Positions 40,986-48,580 of a stretch of DNA of 64,000 nt are shown here, in pieces. Numbering within the stretch: the first letter of the stretch is position 1; each line of letters starts with the position of its first letter. The stretch spans positions 1-64,000 of the forward strand of contig JAFGWE010000003.1 in assembly GCA_016937345.1 (NCBI GenBank), given 5' to 3'. Below the pieces are notes generated by a model. It had not been told where the DNA came from. It worked only from the letters and a program-made list of their open reading frames with translations, and did not search any database. The translations under genes were made by a program, and so were the position numbers. This stretch comes from Methanomicrobiaceae archaeon (GTDB lineage: Archaea; Halobacteriota; Methanomicrobia; Methanomicrobiales; Methanomicrobiaceae).

Positions 40986-42098
40986 TTATCCTAGTTCATC
41001 CCAAGAAGTATAACGCCTGTAGACAATAACTCCGATAATTCCTACAATTACAATTATACCAATAATCAGGAATATTCCCACACCACCTACATCAGGAATA
41101 ATTCCCTTGCTCACTTCTGCATAAAGTGTCTCAGCAGATGCAAGTGCTTCACCTGCTTTTGTAGTGGCAGTCTCCGCAAGTGTGTATGCCTGGGGATAAT
41201 TTTTGTCATTGAATAGTGATTTTGCAGAATTCAGAGAAGATTGTGCGGACTCAATTTTCGTCTCAATGTTTAATACTCTTGCATCATTTGTAAGGCTGCG
41301 GTTGACCTTGAAATCGGTTAAATAAAATGATGTGCTGTCAATCGTTTCCTGTGCATCATTGATTGCCTTCTGTGCCCAAGCCTGATTAAGAAGTGTTTCT
41401 CCCTCTGAAATCAGAGTCTGTGCATCAGAAAGCAAAGTATTCGCAGCTGCATATGATGCTGTTGCAGACTGAATAAACTTTGTTCTCGCATCATCATATT
41501 TTGCCTGTGCGGCTGCTATGTCAACGCCAGTAATCAGTTTATCCTGGATTTTTTTATCAAGGGTTTCAAGATCTTTCTCTACAATATCACGTAGTTTATC
41601 AGTATCTTCAGGATTAATGACAAGTCTTTCTATAGTATACTCTCCTCCGGAAACCAAATTTCCACTGCCGTCACTTTGTGTCAGTTCAAATAATATCTTA
41701 TCCCCTGTGCTGGATACGGCAGGGATCTGTCCTTCAAGACGATAACTTACAACAATCTCATTCGAATCTGAAGGATAATCAAGAATATATCCTGATATTC
41801 TCAGCCATTTACCTGAAGATGTCTGTTCCTGACCATGTCCATTTATCTTTATTGCAGAAATCCATGAACAATCTTCTAAATCAGTATAAGCTTCAAGTGT
41901 ATGTAAACTTGGGAAAGTTGAGTCACCCGTGCTTGCAAGTTTAACATCAACATTTACAGAAACAGAATCCCCGGGGGCATAAGAAGTCTGATCGGGAGTT
42001 ATTTTTACAACAGGCGTGTCAAAGTTTGCTGCCGATACTGAATGCACTAAAAATAATGCAAGAACTAAAAATATTAAAAAGAAAAATTGTTTTTTCAT
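40986..42098 (-). CDS. Membrane-anchored extracytoplasmic protein co-transcribed with cetZ
   Basis: I do not recognise the family. From the ATG at 42098 (GAGGT five bases upstream), the 370-residue protein has a signal peptide (residues 1-23, ending SVSA|A), a beta-rich Ig-like or cohesin-like domain (~25-165, starting TPVVKITPDQTSYAPGDSVSV), a helical segment rich in Ala (~170-325, likely coiled coil) and a single C-terminal membrane helix (~330-358). A short basic/aromatic cytoplasmic tail, YRRYTSWDELG, ends it. Most of the protein is outside the cell. It begins eight bases after the cetZ stop on the same strand, so the two are almost certainly one operon. Confidence 0.78.
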   Translation of the reverse strand: MKKQFFFLIFLVLALFLVHSVSAANFDTPVVKITPDQTSYAPGDSVSVNVDVKLASTGDSTFPSLHTLEAYTDLEDCSWISAIKINGHGQEQTSSGKWLRISGYILDYPSDSNEIVVSYRLEGQIPAVSSTGDKILFELTQSDGSGNLVSGGEYTIERLVINPEDTDKLRDIVEKDLETLDKKIQDKLITGVDIAAAQAKYDDARTKFIQSATASYAAANTLLSDAQTLISEGETLLNQAWAQKAINDAQETIDSTSFYLTDFKVNRSLTNDARVLNIETKIESAQSSLNSAKSLFNDKNYPQAYTLAETATTKAGEALASAETLYAEVSKGIIPDVGGVGIFLIIGIIVIVGIIGVIVYRRYTSWDELG

Positions 42099-42106
42099 AC
42101 CATACC

Positions 42107-43279
42107 TCACTCAAACAATGGATCTATTTCATCATTGTCAAACATCGTTACACGACGTTCTTTGGATTTTATAACATCCTCTTTTGTTTCTTTTGCAATC
42201 TCAAGAAGTTCACGGATACGTGGTGCATCACCAATTGATGCAAGAACAACTACCGCAGCTATCTTTGAACTTTCCGTAGGATAATCTCCGCCTCTTACTT
42301 CTACACCGGCAATGTTTTCTTCAACCCATGATTTGGACTTCTCCACCCCTTTTCGGTCCATCTCATCAGGAGGGCCGGCCATAAGAACAAGCGCACGTTC
42401 TGCAGTTGTATAATCACATGGCAGTGTAAGACGCCCAAGCATTGCCCGTCTGACAAGCCCGATTACCTTTGCAGATTTGTCCTCTCCGGTCAATACCTCT
42501 TCAGATACGTCCTTTTTCCGGGCAGACATCCCACCAAGGAAACCCTTTTTCTGCCTTACGCTTTTGGTTACGGTATCGCTTATCGCATATCCGACAGAAC
42601 TCACACCGCCCCCGCGCAAAGTATTGATTATTTCACTAGAATCAACAACCATCTCACCTACGCCGCTCTTTCCCACTTCTCCGGCACGGAAGAGGACACC
42701 AAAACGACGGACGATCTCATCATTAAGACGCTCATAAGCAGACCTGACGCTCTCGCCTTCGTTTTTCCAGGCACTATTATCAAATATAAATGTGTTATCC
42801 GCTTCGTGTACCAGTGTTGACAGACTTCTTGCTGCATTATAGGAATAAAGCCTGCCTTCCTCAGGTGCAGGAAGAATTCCAAGCGCATATACGGGCTCGC
42901 GGTAGATTCGCTTCAGATGGCGGCAGAGAACCGGTGTACCACCGGAACCTGTTCCTCCTCCAAGACCTGCAATAACAACAAATGCATCGATATCATGAGT
43001 TCCTCTCGTATCAATGGTGTTGATGATGCTATCTATCTCATCCGCTGTAATTTTGGCACCGGTCACATTATCAGTACCTACACCATGACCTTTTACAACA
43101 GTCTGGCCAATGAGAATGCGGTCACGCAATTCTATATGTTTCAGACCCATGAGATCGGTCCTTGCAGTATTAACTGCAATTCCTCTAAAGCTTCGGACAG
43201 GGGCTTTTTTATCCTGTTCCATGAACATATCTACTATTTTGCCCCCGGCCTGGCCAAATCCAATGAAAAAAACTCTCAT
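42107..43279 (-). CDS. cetZ: CetZ-family tubulin-like GTPase
   Basis: A 390-residue tubulin-superfamily protein. The GTP-binding signature is AGLGGGTGSGGTP (GGGTGSGG at residues 107-114). The N-terminal nucleotide strand reads MRVFFIGFGQAGGKIVD, and the sugar-binding/T5-T6 region includes ILPAPEEGRLYSYNAARSL. The start and the QAGGK sequence are typical of CetZ rather than FtsZ. CetZ proteins act in cell shape and motility in haloarchaea. The C-terminus after the tubulin core is short and acidic (FDNDEIDPLFE). It is followed by a gene for a membrane-anchored protein, a possible partner. Confidence 0.92.
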   Translation of the reverse strand: MRVFFIGFGQAGGKIVDMFMEQDKKAPVRSFRGIAVNTARTDLMGLKHIELRDRILIGQTVVKGHGVGTDNVTGAKITADEIDSIINTIDTRGTHDIDAFVVIAGLGGGTGSGGTPVLCRHLKRIYREPVYALGILPAPEEGRLYSYNAARSLSTLVHEADNTFIFDNSAWKNEGESVRSAYERLNDEIVRRFGVLFRAGEVGKSGVGEMVVDSSEIINTLRGGGVSSVGYAISDTVTKSVRQKKGFLGGMSARKKDVSEEVLTGEDKSAKVIGLVRRAMLGRLTLPCDYTTAERALVLMAGPPDEMDRKGVEKSKSWVEENIAGVEVRGGDYPTESSKIAAVVVLASIGDAPRIRELLEIAKETKEDVIKSKERRVTMFDNDEIDPLFE

Positions 43280-43678
43280 TTAACAAAACACCATCCAGTG
43301 GAGTGAAGATTACTTTCCCGTTACTTAAGGATGTTAAAATGTATTAATTCATTACTTCAAAAACTTTCTTATGTTCAGCTATAAAATTCAGGAAAATTAA
43401 AGGGAGATTAAACCAATTTTAAACAAATATCTGATGAAAAGAACAGAGAGTTTGTAGTTTATAAACAACAGCTGATATATTTTTCTCCATATATTAGAAC
43501 TGGAAATTCTTTTAGAATCATCTTCATGCAAAAAATACTATGATGATACTATGATAAAAGTCCAGAATAATTCACCTGCATATATTTTTGTCTTTTTGAC
43601 TGATTGCATCTCAAAAGATACTATGTTTTATCTTTTAATCAAAAGCATGAAATGCTCTGCAACAAAAATATAGTAGAA
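43280..43678. other. Divergent intergenic region between cetZ and the FAD enzyme gene
   Basis: About 400 AT-rich bases with no convincing gene. It must hold the promoters of cetZ (leftward) and of the FAD enzyme (rightward). A short direct repeat, ATACTATGATG/ATACTATGATA, is at about 43538-43556. T-rich and TATA-like stretches occur near 43476-43500 and 43630-43640. No riboswitch or RNA gene was recognised. Confidence 0.5.
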
Positions 43679-44908
43679 ATGGATATCTGCATTATTGGAG
43701 GAGGACTAACCGGCCTGTCTGCGGCTTACAGTCTCAGAGGAAAGGCAGACATAACTATCCTTGAAAAAAAAGGTGGACTTGGAGGATGTCTTTCGTCATC
43801 AAAGGCAAAAAAAGGATATATTGAGGATTTTTATCACCACTGTTTTTCCGGAGACAAAAATCTTTTTGAACTTTCAGAATCTCTTGGAATTCTTGATGAA
43901 CTTGATTGGCTGTCAGGAAGCACAGGGTACTATGTAAATGGAAAAATAAACCCACTCACAACTCCTCTTGAAATTTTAAGATATCCCCATCTTACAATTA
44001 CTGACAAAATAAGGCTTGGCCTTCTTACACTTCATTCACAAAAATATGACCTTTCCGGGTTAGATGATATTTCTGCAAAGGATTTTATAATTGAAAAATG
44101 TGGAAATGGTGTTTATAGCTCTTTTTTTGAACCGTTACTAAAAAGCAAATTTGGTGATATGAGAGAGTCTGTATCTGCCGCATGGCTCATCTCACGAATT
44201 GCAATACGCTCAGACAGAAAAACAGGCGGAGAGAAACTCGGATACTTCAAATCCGGATATAATACCCTTATAGAAGCGCTTAAAGCAGAGCTGCTGAAGT
44301 CCGGATGCAAAATAAAAGAGAATTCATCTGCTGAAAGTATCTTTTTCAATGGTTCTGGATGGGAAGTAAACGGGATTCCCTATGATATTTTAATATCGAC
44401 GATAAATCCCTCAAAACTTGAAGAAAAAGGCGGCCCTGCAATTTCAAAGATTCCATACCAGGGTGCAGCCTGTATGGCAATAGGTCTTAAAAAAGAGGTT
44501 ACAAGCGGCATATACTGGCTTAATATGAAAGATGATGCCCCATATGGGGCTGTAATCGGGCACACAAATTTTGTCTCTCCGGAAAGATACGGGGAGCATA
44601 TTGTATATCTTGCATCATATTTTAGCGAAAAACCGGCAGAGGATCTAAAGCAAATAATGATTGAAGATTTTTGCAGACGCTTTAGTGTAGCAGAGAATGA
44701 GATAAACTGGTACAGGCTAACGGTTGAAAAATTTGCAGGGCCCGTTTATACCAAAGGATACAAAAAATTAATTCCCGAATATGAAAAAGACGGGCTCTTC
44801 ATGGCCGGTATGTTTTCTCTCCCAAATTATCCGGAAAGAAGCATGGAGGGCTCAATAATTGCTGGGAAGACTGTTGCATCAGAAATAATAAGGAAATATA
44901 CAATATGA
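43679..44908 (+). CDS. FAD-dependent oxidoreductase (protoporphyrinogen oxidase/amine-oxidase fold)
   Basis: A 409-residue flavoprotein from the ATG at 43679. The FAD dinucleotide motif MDICIIGGGLTGLSAAYSL is at the very N-terminus, which supports this start over upstream ones. The following LEKKGGLGGCL and the C-terminal GLFMAGMFSLPNYPERSMEGSIIAGKTVA complete the FAD site. The family includes protoporphyrinogen oxidase-like and UDP-galactopyranose mutase-like enzymes. It opens a four-gene string with overlapping ends (GT2, flippase-like, DUF2298). The operon setting suggests it works on a lipid or sugar carrier, such as a polyprenol; the substrate is unknown. Confidence 0.87.
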   Translation: MDICIIGGGLTGLSAAYSLRGKADITILEKKGGLGGCLSSSKAKKGYIEDFYHHCFSGDKNLFELSESLGILDELDWLSGSTGYYVNGKINPLTTPLEILRYPHLTITDKIRLGLLTLHSQKYDLSGLDDISAKDFIIEKCGNGVYSSFFEPLLKSKFGDMRESVSAAWLISRIAIRSDRKTGGEKLGYFKSGYNTLIEALKAELLKSGCKIKENSSAESIFFNGSGWEVNGIPYDILISTINPSKLEEKGGPAISKIPYQGAACMAIGLKKEVTSGIYWLNMKDDAPYGAVIGHTNFVSPERYGEHIVYLASYFSEKPAEDLKQIMIEDFCRRFSVAENEINWYRLTVEKFAGPVYTKGYKKLIPEYEKDGLFMAGMFSLPNYPERSMEGSIIAGKTVASEIIRKYTI

Positions 44909-45609
44909 AAAAAATTGAGGTCAGTGCAGTATTACCCGTTTTTAATGACAGGGTATCACTTGAAAAGGCAATACCAAAATCTATTGAAATTTTGGAAGAG
45001 ATAACTGATTCTTTTGAGCTTATTGTTGCAGAAGACAACAGCACCGACCATAGCAGAGAACTTGTTGAAGAATGGGAGATAAAAGACCCTCGTATCATAC
45101 TTCTTCACAGCGATGACAGGCAGGGCAGAGGAAAAGCATTAAAAAATGCATTTTCAAGGGCACACGGAGAGATTGTCTGCTACTATGACGTTGATCTCGC
45201 AACGGGAATGGAACACTTAAAAGAGCTTATTGATTCTGTCAGAAATGGAGCGGATATTTCAACAGGTTCACGTCTTATGCCGGAAAGTGACATAGTGAGA
45301 ACAAGGGATCGTGAGATTGCGAGCAGGGGATTTAACTTTATAGTCAGACTTGTCTTAAAAAGCAGGCTTTATGATCACCAGTGCGGATTTAAGGCGTTTA
45401 ACAAAGAAAGCCTGATGAAACTCTTACCGTCAGTATATTCAACACACTGGTTCTGGGACACAGAGGTACTGATCAGAGGTCAGCGTGCAGGGTATAATAT
45501 ATCTGAGTTTCCTGTAAGGTGGAGGACCGGAACAGGCACAACTGTAAAGTTTAAAGATGTATTCTCCATGGGTTCCGATATTCTCAAATTATGGTGGCAG
45601 CTTTTATGA
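44905..45609 (+). CDS. Family 2 glycosyltransferase, dolichyl-phosphate sugar synthase-like (AglD N-terminal half)
   Basis: A 234-residue GT-A enzyme without membrane helices. Motifs: VLPVFNDRVSLEKAI, the nucleotide-binding LIVAEDNSTD, then GRGKALKNAFSRA, the metal-binding YYDVDLAT and STHWFWDTEVLIRG, and the basic end PVRWRTGTGTTVKF. It resembles polyprenyl-phosphate glucose/mannose synthases and the N-terminal part of haloarchaeal AglD. It overlaps the FAD enzyme by four bases and the flippase gene by four. Its likely product is a dolichyl-phosphate sugar used outside the cell. Confidence 0.88.
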   Translation: MKKIEVSAVLPVFNDRVSLEKAIPKSIEILEEITDSFELIVAEDNSTDHSRELVEEWEIKDPRIILLHSDDRQGRGKALKNAFSRAHGEIVCYYDVDLATGMEHLKELIDSVRNGADISTGSRLMPESDIVRTRDREIASRGFNFIVRLVLKSRLYDHQCGFKAFNKESLMKLLPSVYSTHWFWDTEVLIRGQRAGYNISEFPVRWRTGTGTTVKFKDVFSMGSDILKLWWQLL

Positions 45610-46574
45610 ACTACAAAAAGGCAGGCGCAATAATAATCCCAACATTAATCGCAGCAGGGATTATTGCATATATGCTACTCAGGGTCTGGGGAGATCTTAT
45701 TGTAGCCTTAAAGACAGCAGTTCCATCATTTCTGATATTAGCAGTATTAATATGCATAGTTGCATGGTTCTTAAGGGGGCTCAGGTACCAATATATTCTA
45801 AAAAAGATTGATGTTTTGGTTAATTTATGGAAGTCAACCGCATGCATATACATATCACAGACTGCCAATCTGATTATTCCGGCAAGACTTGGAGATCTTG
45901 TACGTCTGCTGATATTGAAGCATGAAGCAGATGCAACATACTCAAAAGGGCTCTCCTCTATTGTTGTTGAGCGTTTTTTTGACATAATCACAATTGCACT
46001 TTTGGGAGTAATTGCCCTGCCATTTGCACTGAATGTTCCGGAATGGTTTTCAACAGTTATTTTCGCGGCCCTTGTCCTGTCTTTTGCATTTATTGCAGCA
46101 CTGGGTCTTTTTGGAAATTTAAAAGCAGAAAATAAATATATAAATATATTATTTAATCTTCTTTCAGAGATAAAACAGGCTTCTTTAGGAATATCCGCAA
46201 CAGGGATCTTGGGTTTTTCATCTGTCGTCATATGGATCTTTGACTGTTTTATATGTCTTGTAATTGCAATGATGTTCAATGTTGAAATTCCCTTTGTAGT
46301 GATAGTTCTTGCAATTGTTATTGGAAACCTTGTAAAAGCCGTTCCACTGACACCCGGCGGTGTTGGCACATATGAACTTGCGGTTGCATTAACCCTTGAA
46401 ATTTCAGGAACTCCTGCGGCAATTGCAACACTGATTGCAGTAATAGATCACCTTGTTAAAAATCTGGTTACCCTTGCAGGGGGCGTCATATCACTCTATA
46501 TTTTCGGTGACTGGGCAGTTGATCTGATGAAGCGTGCTTTTTCAAGAGGTATTGATAAAGGAGAAATTATTTGA
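45606..46574 (+). CDS. Flippase-like membrane protein (UPF0104/LPG-synthase TM; AglD C-terminal half)
   Basis: A 322-residue integral membrane protein, with about eight helices, of the lysylphosphatidylglycerol synthase TM/UPF0104 family. Typical motifs are WFLRGLRYQYIL, PARLGDLVRLLILK, SSIVVERFFDII and VPLTPGGVGTYELA. The ATG at 45606 overlaps the GT2 stop codon (ATGA). In Haloferax AglD, a GT2 domain and this kind of membrane domain are one protein; here they are separate, adjacent and coupled. It probably moves or anchors the lipid-linked sugar. Direct evidence for flipping by this family is limited. Confidence 0.87.
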   Translation: MNYKKAGAIIIPTLIAAGIIAYMLLRVWGDLIVALKTAVPSFLILAVLICIVAWFLRGLRYQYILKKIDVLVNLWKSTACIYISQTANLIIPARLGDLVRLLILKHEADATYSKGLSSIVVERFFDIITIALLGVIALPFALNVPEWFSTVIFAALVLSFAFIAALGLFGNLKAENKYINILFNLLSEIKQASLGISATGILGFSSVVIWIFDCFICLVIAMMFNVEIPFVVIVLAIVIGNLVKAVPLTPGGVGTYELAVALTLEISGTPAAIATLIAVIDHLVKNLVTLAGGVISLYIFGDWAVDLMKRAFSRGIDKGEII

Positions 46575-48580
46575 CGCCCGAAATGCAGGTATTTTCAATT
46601 CTAATCTGGATTATTCTCCTTAAATTCATTCAGATTTCCATCTGGCCTCTCCTGAAAAAAGCTGTGGGAGATTTCTCTTACGGAATTTCATATCCCGCAT
46701 CTCTTTTAATTTTTGCACTATTGTCCTGGTACTCAGGGTTTTTCGGAGTGACTTTATACGCATCACTTTTTATCTTTGCAATTTTGTTTATCTTTTTTGC
46801 GTACAATGGAGAATATTCCGGAGATAAAATTGCCGTGAATCTGAGATGGGACTTTGTGTTTTTTATGCTCTTCCTCTTCATGCTTGAAGTGAGATACTTA
46901 AACCCGTCCATATCATATGCAGAGAAATTTATGGATCATGCATTTCTGGCATCAGTTATGAACAATCCAGCAATCCCGCCTGTTGACCCGTGGTATTCAG
47001 GAGGAAATCTTGACGTATATTATTATCTGGGACACTGGACTTTCGGTGCTTTGGGTGTAATGTCCGGAATCAAATCAACAGTTGTATTCAACCTTATACT
47101 TCCGACAGTCTTTGCAAATATAGGTGTGTCTTTATATGCATCAGGAAAACTTCTTCTGAAAAAATATCAGTGGCTGCCGGTTCTCACAATTTTTGTTGTA
47201 AATCCGGCTTTTATCTACCATCTTCTTTTAGGCAAAAGTATTACGGCTGTTATGTGGGATAGCACAAGAACCATTGATGCCGCAATAACGGAATATCCTG
47301 TTTTTTCAATGCTCTGGGGCGATCCACATGCACATGTAATTTCACTTTTTAACCAGGCATTTTTCCTGTTTCTTCTGATATACTGTTACCTCAAATGGAA
47401 CGAATCTGATGACAGATCAAAGTGGATTCTGGCTATCTTAATGTCCATAAGCCTGGGTTCAATGCCACTTTTAAATACATGGGATGTATTAATTTATGCT
47501 CCTGCACTTCTGGTTTTCGGATTTTTAATCTTTCTTAAAAACAGGGATGATAAATTTATCAAAAATCTTCCTTTGAGAATTATACTGCTGGTTCCTGCAT
47601 TATCTGTCCTTATATATCTCCCTTACTACCTGATGCTCAATGCAGGAGGAATTGAAGGTATTGCAATAGTAAATAGCCCTACAGAACCTTTTGCATTCAT
47701 TTTAGTATACGGATTTTTCCTTTTGGTATTATATCTTGAATGCATAAAAGACATTATCCAAAAACCTTACCTGATAATTTTCGGTATACCTTTTATTCTT
47801 CTGGGATACTTTGGTGCAGGGCTTTGTATAATCCCAATCTCTGCACTTATATCCAGAAAAAAGCTCCTCCCACAGGATATTCTGGCATCTCTTGGCCTCT
47901 TGATAATAATCTTTACAGAAACATTTTACCTCAGGGACAATATGGGCGAGGCATACTTTAGGATGAATACCGTCTTTAAATTCTCCATTATTGCATGGAT
48001 GATGCTTGGAATTTCAACTGCTGTTTTTATCGGGAAATATCTTGAGAAAAGAAATTCTTTGAATAATGAAAAAACAGATACAAAGAAAAAGTCTGCATTT
48101 GTTGCAATAATTATCTGTGCACTATTATTAACACCGTTAATTCTTCCGGATCTTAACTACGGATATGGAGGAAAGACCCTTGATGGCATGGAATGGATGA
48201 AAATACAACATCCATATGAGTACAATGCAATAGATTATCTGAGGGAGCAGAAAGGAAGTATAAGTATTGTTGAGGCAGAAGACGGAGACTATACATATTA
48301 CTCACGGGTTTCATCCATGACAGGATATCCGACAATTATTGGAATGCCTTTTCACGAACAGATGTGGAGAGGAGATGCGGCACTTGTCGGAGAAAGAATG
48401 TCAGATATCAAAAAAATATATGAAAATCCAAAAGAATGTGCATCCCTGATGGAAAAATACAGTATGACACATATATTCGTTGGAGAACCCGAAAATAAGA
48501 GATATAATTTAAACCTTCCTTATGATCTCCTGACTATTGTATATCAAAACGATGGCGTGGTAATTTATGCGCTCAAATAA
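46571..48580 (+). CDS. DUF2298 polytopic membrane protein (GT-C-like, chlor_Arch_YYY type)
   Basis: A 669-residue membrane protein with a dozen or more helices. The start is TTG 46571, seven bases after AAAGGAG (46557-46563) and overlapping the previous stop; an ATG at 46583 is too far from that site. The large first extracytoplasmic loop has SYAEKFMDHAFLASVMNN, then PPVDPWYSGGNLDVYYYLGH, the hallmark of DUF2298. Later come WGDPHAHVISLF and YFRMNTVFKFS. The C-terminal ~110 residues are a soluble outer domain. The family is distantly like GT-C glycosyltransferases that use lipid-phosphate sugars. As the last gene after a GT2/flippase pair it is the likely transferase onto an exported acceptor. 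Confidence 0.85.
   Translation: MTPEMQVFSILIWIILLKFIQISIWPLLKKAVGDFSYGISYPASLLIFALLSWYSGFFGVTLYASLFIFAILFIFFAYNGEYSGDKIAVNLRWDFVFFMLFLFMLEVRYLNPSISYAEKFMDHAFLASVMNNPAIPPVDPWYSGGNLDVYYYLGHWTFGALGVMSGIKSTVVFNLILPTVFANIGVSLYASGKLLLKKYQWLPVLTIFVVNPAFIYHLLLGKSITAVMWDSTRTIDAAITEYPVFSMLWGDPHAHVISLFNQAFFLFLLIYCYLKWNESDDRSKWILAILMSISLGSMPLLNTWDVLIYAPALLVFGFLIFLKNRDDKFIKNLPLRIILLVPALSVLIYLPYYLMLNAGGIEGIAIVNSPTEPFAFILVYGFFLLVLYLECIKDIIQKPYLIIFGIPFILLGYFGAGLCIIPISALISRKKLLPQDILASLGLLIIIFTETFYLRDNMGEAYFRMNTVFKFSIIAWMMLGISTAVFIGKYLEKRNSLNNEKTDTKKKSAFVAIIICALLLTPLILPDLNYGYGGKTLDGMEWMKIQHPYEYNAIDYLREQKGSISIVEAEDGDYTYYSRVSSMTGYPTIIGMPFHEQMWRGDAALVGERMSDIKKIYENPKECASLMEKYSMTHIFVGEPENKRYNLNLPYDLLTIVYQNDGVVIYALK

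Follow-up and report, generated by a model that had tools for sequence, protein, structure and literature searches.

What does a cluster of four overlapping genes, encoding a flavoenzyme, a glycosyltransferase and two membrane proteins, do in a Methanomicrobiaceae archaeon? The cluster occupies positions 43679–48580 of the window, by which we mean the whole analysed stretch of 64 000 nucleotides of contig JAFGWE010000003.1 (assembly GCA_016937345.1). Our study suggests that it probably encodes an archaeal three-component extracytoplasmic glycosylation system, together with a flavoenzyme whose substrate would be the polyprenyl-phosphate sugar or its carrier.

A sequence-only reading of the locus had described four genes with overlapping ends, and the open reading frames (ORFs) and the sequence itself agree: all four lie on the forward strand, with a 4-base overlap at three of three junctions. 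The first gene (43679–44908, ATG start; a longer alternative frame has a TTG start at 43604) encodes a 409 aa flavin adenine dinucleotide (FAD) enzyme of the PRK07233 family. An ATGA stop/start overlap (44905–44908) joins it to a gene for a soluble GT2 protein of 234 aa (44905–45609), and a second ATGA (45606–45609), at the site where haloarchaeal AglD is continuous, leads to that for a UPF0104 (LPG_synthase_TM) protein of 322 aa with approximately 8 transmembrane segments (45606–46574). A TTGA overlap (46571–46574) then connects the gene for a DUF2298/TIGR03662 membrane protein of 669 aa with approximately 13 transmembrane segments (46571–48580, TTG start). Profile searches matched the families that had been named (GT2, UPF0104, DUF2298 and an amine-oxidase fold, the last as PRK07233), all above curated cut-offs. 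The flavoenzyme scored 435 bits against PRK07233/NF005560 (cut-off 252) and 88 bits against Amino_oxidase, the GT2 protein 89 bits against PF00535 (Glycos_transf_2), the UPF0104 protein 182 bits against PF03706, and the DUF2298 protein 336.8 bits against PF10060 (cut-off 27.8) and 490.4 bits against TIGR03662 (cut-off 300.25). No hydrophobic segments were found in the GT2 protein or the flavoenzyme, and the UPF0104 protein was found as a single copy in the window's genome.

AglD as two adjacent genes

The GT2 and UPF0104 proteins are orthologues of the N-terminal and C-terminal halves of AglD, respectively, as the sequence-only reading had proposed, and this is established by reciprocal best matches, one shared fused ORF and landmark residues. 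The GT2 profile of the order Methanomicrobiales, run on 24 haloarchaeal genomes, returned one match per genome in all 24 (260–303 bits, in a long open frame of 611–769 aa), while the next-best haloarchaeal GT2 in any genome reached ≤98 bits. The best match of the flippase profile fell in the same ORF in 24/24 genomes. The residues listed for Haloferax volcanii AglD (Asp110, Asp112, Asp133, Arg139, Arg152, Asp173, Gly177, Asp195, Trp198, Asp201 and Glu203; PMC2877612) were present at exact spacing in these fused ORFs, with 11/11 in 23 of them and 10/11 in one, which identifies them as AglD. In the window GT2, D95, D97, D117, R123 and R136 correspond to AglD D110, D112, D133, R139 and R152, and D157, G161, W182, D185 and E187 to D173, G177, W198, D201 and E203. 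The window protein has one residue fewer after the DxD motif and keeps every listed residue except Asp195, which was dispensable when AglD was mutagenized (PMC2877612). Searching back with haloarchaeal AglD gave the cluster GT2 as the best match in 16/16 genomes (47–54 % identity), and the AglD membrane half matched the cluster flippase, so AglD is nearer to both halves than other GT2 or UPF0104 proteins are. A fused GT2–UPF0104 paralogue of 590 aa, present in two genomes (G013 and G017), might instead have been the true AglD, but was discarded because it scored 103–113 bits with the AglD query, compared to 231–245 bits for the split GT2.

AglD is a single polypeptide, whereas its two parts are separate ORFs here and in every cluster of the order that was sampled. 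In six other families, outside the order (f8, f9, f20, f26, f30 and f31), a fused GT2–UPF0104 gene adjoins DUF2298, and in f20 and f26 it also stands between DUF2298 and the flavoenzyme or next to the latter. In the GT2 tree, fused forms surround a single clade (100/100) of the order's split genes; the most distant row is a fused paralogue, and two further split cases are placed elsewhere. The simplest reading is gene fission from a fused AglD ancestor; the tree is consistent with this, although its root was not tested. The relatives of the window GT2 in the PDB are dolichol-phosphate mannose synthase (DPMS) and ArnC-type polyprenyl-phosphate sugar synthases, and it is predicted to be a dolichyl-phosphate-hexose synthase; in Haloferax, AglD itself adds mannose to dolichol phosphate (PMC4335974). 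A PDB sequence search with the flippase gave no matches. UPF0104 proteins, including the C-terminal domain of AglD, have earlier been proposed as flippases (Makarova et al. 2015; PMC5898192).

DUF2298 and the conservation of the four-gene block

A PDB sequence search with the DUF2298 protein was also empty and a fold search was therefore needed. The protein was modelled by AlphaFold2 with 32 relatives (predicted local distance difference test score, pLDDT, of 91) and compared with all PDB chains by Foldseek. Twelve matches had a probability of 1.00 (E values of 8e-7 to 0.075; TM-scores of 0.27–0.51) and only noise was seen beyond them. All 12 credible matches were GT-C enzymes, namely DPY19, AftA, STT3 of several oligosaccharyltransferases and Pmt1, with AftA giving the best TM-score (0.46–0.51). 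Two invariant acidic residues, E118 and D139 (within D139-P-W), flank a conserved loop before a YYY motif; presumably they are placed where GT-C enzymes keep their catalytic acids, a position assigned by analogy. The model thus bears out the earlier suggestion of a GT-C-like protein, and DUF2298 is predicted with high confidence to be a GT-C-fold glycosyltransferase.

Gene linkage was assessed across the order in 120 genomes, of which 115 had DUF2298 and 113 had PRK07233 over its cut-off; in 106 of the 113 genomes with both, the flavoenzyme and DUF2298 shared a contig and strand at a median distance of 3.07 kb, which leaves space for the GT2 and flippase genes. In the sampled loci these were found in place, in the fixed order flavoenzyme, GT2, flippase, DUF2298, and a divergent cetZ gene on the opposite flank. 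Among the seven unlinked genomes, two that probably belong to the window's genus (G083 and G087) carry a flavoenzyme–GT2 pair apart from a flippase–DUF2298 pair, and the remainder are draft assemblies with the genes on separate contigs. Four genomes, apparently of one genus (G094, G098, G106 and G118), had no DUF2298 and no strong flavoenzyme, GT2 or flippase match; cetZ is kept and the flanking genes close around the gap (loci L257, L258, L259 and L260). This is a joint loss of exactly these four genes, and it makes the four genomes natural deletions that are ready comparisons for glycan analysis. The survey thus found the four genes together across nearly the whole order and lost as a block, which rules out a chance neighbourhood. 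In the same phylum but outside the order, 202 genomes were compared: 82 had both the flavoenzyme and DUF2298, 112 neither, seven the flavoenzyme only and one DUF2298 only, a co-occurrence whose significance is inflated by shared ancestry.

The role of the cluster and of its flavoenzyme

The following scheme would account for these associations. On the cytoplasmic side, the GT2 protein would load dolichyl (polyprenyl) phosphate with a hexose taken from a nucleotide sugar; before export, the flavoenzyme would alter this lipid-linked sugar or, with lower likelihood, its carrier; the UPF0104 protein would carry the lipid-linked sugar across the membrane; and the DUF2298 GT-C protein would attach the sugar, outside the cell, to a glycan of the surface, most probably the surface-layer (S-layer) N-glycan or another envelope glycan. 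The ancestral one-piece AglD would have split into two coupled genes in this order. We infer the sugar, the acceptor, the flipping and its direction, and the flavin reaction; the roles suggested for the flippase and the flavoenzyme derive from gene context.

Several points weigh against this scheme. The activities of all four proteins are predictions and the fold of the flavoenzyme alone does not narrow its substrate. In Haloferax, AglR has been implicated in translocation and AglS in final transfer (PMC4335974), and the roles of the UPF0104 and DUF2298 proteins are therefore not fixed by the AglD literature and remain predictions. Halobacteria, of which H. volcanii has both the flavoenzyme and DUF2298 families, mostly have the flavoenzyme, AglD and DUF2298 at separate loci. 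By coordinates, the gene divergent to DUF2298 in 14/24 genomes encodes another GT2, weakly similar to AglJ (for example L111, L112, L119 and L128). Second copies of the flavoenzyme–GT2–flippase genes also occur without DUF2298 (L068 and L069).

It is quite possible, though short of probable, that the system decorates a glycolipid or exopolysaccharide and not the S-layer N-glycan: AepG, a dolichol-phosphate GT2 of Haloarcula, serves exopolysaccharide synthesis (PMC9943897), bacterial three-component systems act on polysaccharides (PMC11127046), and AglB is not among the four genes. AglD, however, is the best-studied orthologue and serves S-layer N-glycosylation (PMC2877612, PMC4335974).

With regard to the flavoenzyme, an AlphaFold2 model (pLDDT of 92) had its best Foldseek matches in protoporphyrinogen oxidase (PPO), phytoene desaturase, UDP-galactopyranose mutase (UGM) and monoamine oxidase, and by this model the protein belongs to the amine-oxidase/PPO/phytoene desaturase/UGM superfamily. 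Its distribution, which nearly matches that of DUF2298 outside the order, was more informative. A plasmid search revealed bacterial PRK07233 members scoring >500 bits, adjoining genes for a UbiA-type phosphoribosyltransferase, DprE1, DprE2, an epimerase and GtrA. A genome scan then gave 80 bacterial loci (L177–L256), mostly from Proteobacteria and Acidobacteriota, with epimerase-like neighbours in 47, DprE1 in 40, UbiA in 35 and GtrA in 31, and frequently in the fixed order UbiA–DprE1–DprE2–epimerase–flavoenzyme–GtrA. Such clusters are makers of polyprenyl-phosphate pentofuranoses. In an actinomycete locus, the flavoenzyme gene overlaps a GT2 gene. The lipid-linked sugars of the archaeal and bacterial systems are made by unrelated enzymes; what the systems have in common is polyprenyl phosphate, a lipid-linked sugar, a flippase and an external transferase, and it is from these common parts that we propose the lipid-linked sugar (or the carrier) as the substrate of the flavoenzyme. 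Epimerization at the lipid-linked stage is established for bacterial three-component systems (PMC11127046). A broader proposal is put forward tentatively, as a serious possibility that falls somewhat short of even: PRK07233 may be an unrecognized class of flavoenzyme (isomerase, epimerase or oxidoreductase) that works directly on polyprenyl-phosphate-linked sugars in both the AglD-type glycosylation systems of archaea and the DprE1/UbiA-type systems of bacteria, DUF2298 being the GT-C transferase dedicated to the archaeal ones.

A doubtful alternative takes the isoprenoid carrier and not the sugar as the substrate, so that the flavoenzyme would saturate or desaturate dolichol. The carrier is the one substrate certainly common to the archaeal GT2 and bacterial UbiA/DprE systems, and the highest TM-score of the flavoenzyme model was with a lipid enzyme, phytoene desaturase (0.82). 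Against this, archaeal dolichol saturation is assigned to geranylgeranyl-reductase-type enzymes, and the neighbours of bacterial PRK07233 are not genes of general carrier synthesis but those for sugar-converting enzymes (DprE1, DprE2 and NAD epimerase) that serve one kind of lipid-linked sugar. It is less likely again that the flavoenzyme is a UGM-like pyranose–furanose mutase and the transferred sugar a furanose. Bacterial members are located in furanose pathways, UGMs were among the Foldseek matches, and in a profile alignment with Escherichia coli UGM the FAD and His/Phe motifs are paired, as are RI(A/P)(I/V)R and D..PY...I.H..F. However, the bacterial ribose route starts from a furanose already, the UGM family is absent among the listed NCBIfam matches, and the second UGM substrate arginine (PYTR) is Ala or Gly in the flavoenzyme family; membership of the UGM family was rejected on the missing arginine. 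Finally, GT2 and UPF0104 are large families with many paralogues and stand-alone UPF0104 genes are common (PMC5898192), so a separate UPF0104 gene is not remarkable by itself, but the idea that the likeness to AglD is generic and the four neighbours have no common role is scarcely credible, being already contradicted by the reciprocal best matches, the exact landmark residues, the fused homologues at the same gene position, the block loss and the matching phyletic distribution.

Surrounding genes and known systems

Variants of the cluster were also observed. In part of one family (f6), an FkbM methyltransferase gene lies between the flippase and DUF2298 genes (L051:8585-9541, L054:7375-8331 and L070:6740-7696); this insert was considered as a possible epimerase and rejected on its identity. 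Second copies at two loci (L058 and L066) consist of DUF2298 and an extra adjacent GT2. A TIGR03663 (Agl23, PMT-like) gene directly adjoins the flavoenzyme in two other archaeal families, f10 and f30 (L127:6868-8460 and L132:7349-8965). Among bacteria, the UbiA–DprE1–DprE2–epimerase–PRK07233–GtrA cluster, which is widespread in Proteobacteria, is often followed by a long uncharacterized protein without a Pfam match, and a proteobacterial-type cluster on a contig titled Streptomyces sp. AcH 505 (L214) is probably assembly contamination. Beside the cluster in the window, a very conserved CetZ tubulin-like gene is encoded divergently (42107–43279, reverse strand), followed by a gene for a 374 aa protein with hydrophobic segments at its N- and C-terminus (40986–42110, reverse strand). 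The flavoenzyme gene has cetZ divergently beside it in 108 of the 112 genomes with both, although a published survey of CetZ saw few similarities among the Methanomicrobiales cetZ regions analysed (PMC9856176).

In the searchable literature, no function has been assigned to PRK07233, which is unnamed there, or to DUF2298, which two papers mention without one, and the four-gene cluster is not described in the CetZ or AglD literature searched. Reading DUF2298 as a GT-C protein and linking the flavoenzyme across the two domains both appear to be unreported in this literature; together with the split AglD they are the new elements, whereas the kind of system is known. The cluster joins the AglD membrane half, DUF2298 and the PRK07233 flavoenzyme, all poorly understood, in one testable unit. 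As the membrane domain of AglD is a separable gene here, glycosyltransferase and putative flippase functions could be individually deleted and complemented. A Pfam family of unknown function gains a proposed function. An unassigned flavoenzyme is connected, in archaea and in bacteria alike, with the chemistry of lipid-linked sugars, and some of its clusters contain DprE1, a drug target in its mycobacterial form.

Among the known systems closest to the cluster is AglD of H. volcanii (HVO_0798), to which both halves are orthologous and whose DxD, Arg139 and catalytic Asp201 have equivalents in the window GT2. AglD is one protein, whereas the window has two genes that overlap by 4 bases and share an operon with those for the flavoenzyme and DUF2298. 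A neighbourhood of archaeal UPF0104, STT3/PMT-like and AglD-like GT2 genes was noted earlier (PMC5898192), and in its MJ1078–MJ1080 type a UPF0104 protein, an AglD-like GT2 and a distant STT3/PMT relative are likewise side by side. No flavoenzyme is mentioned there, and a control search found no DUF2298 match in Methanocaldococcus jannaschii, so its GT-C gene is of another family. The mycobacterial UbiA/DprE1/DprE2/GtrA/AftA pathway for the arabinan donor resembles the cluster in its GT-C enzyme, AftA, and in that such clusters hold bacterial homologues of the flavoenzyme; its donor, however, is made from phosphoribosyl pyrophosphate by UbiA and not by a GT2, and no PRK07233 step is described. 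UGM is of the same flavin superfamily as the flavoenzyme and has several motifs in common with it, differing in the second substrate arginine. The sequence-only reading had known of no named pathway with this set of genes, and here it has to be corrected, as a named class with a corresponding layout exists in the three-component systems of bacteria (GtrA/GtrB/GT-C; PMC11127046). As in these, a lipid-phosphate sugar synthase, a flippase candidate and a GT-C enzyme are encoded together, and the correspondence holds by family, fold and linkage; the window differs in having a UPF0104 protein (PF03706) in place of a GtrA/small multidrug resistance (SMR)-type flippase, DUF2298 as its GT-C protein and an extra PRK07233 flavoenzyme.

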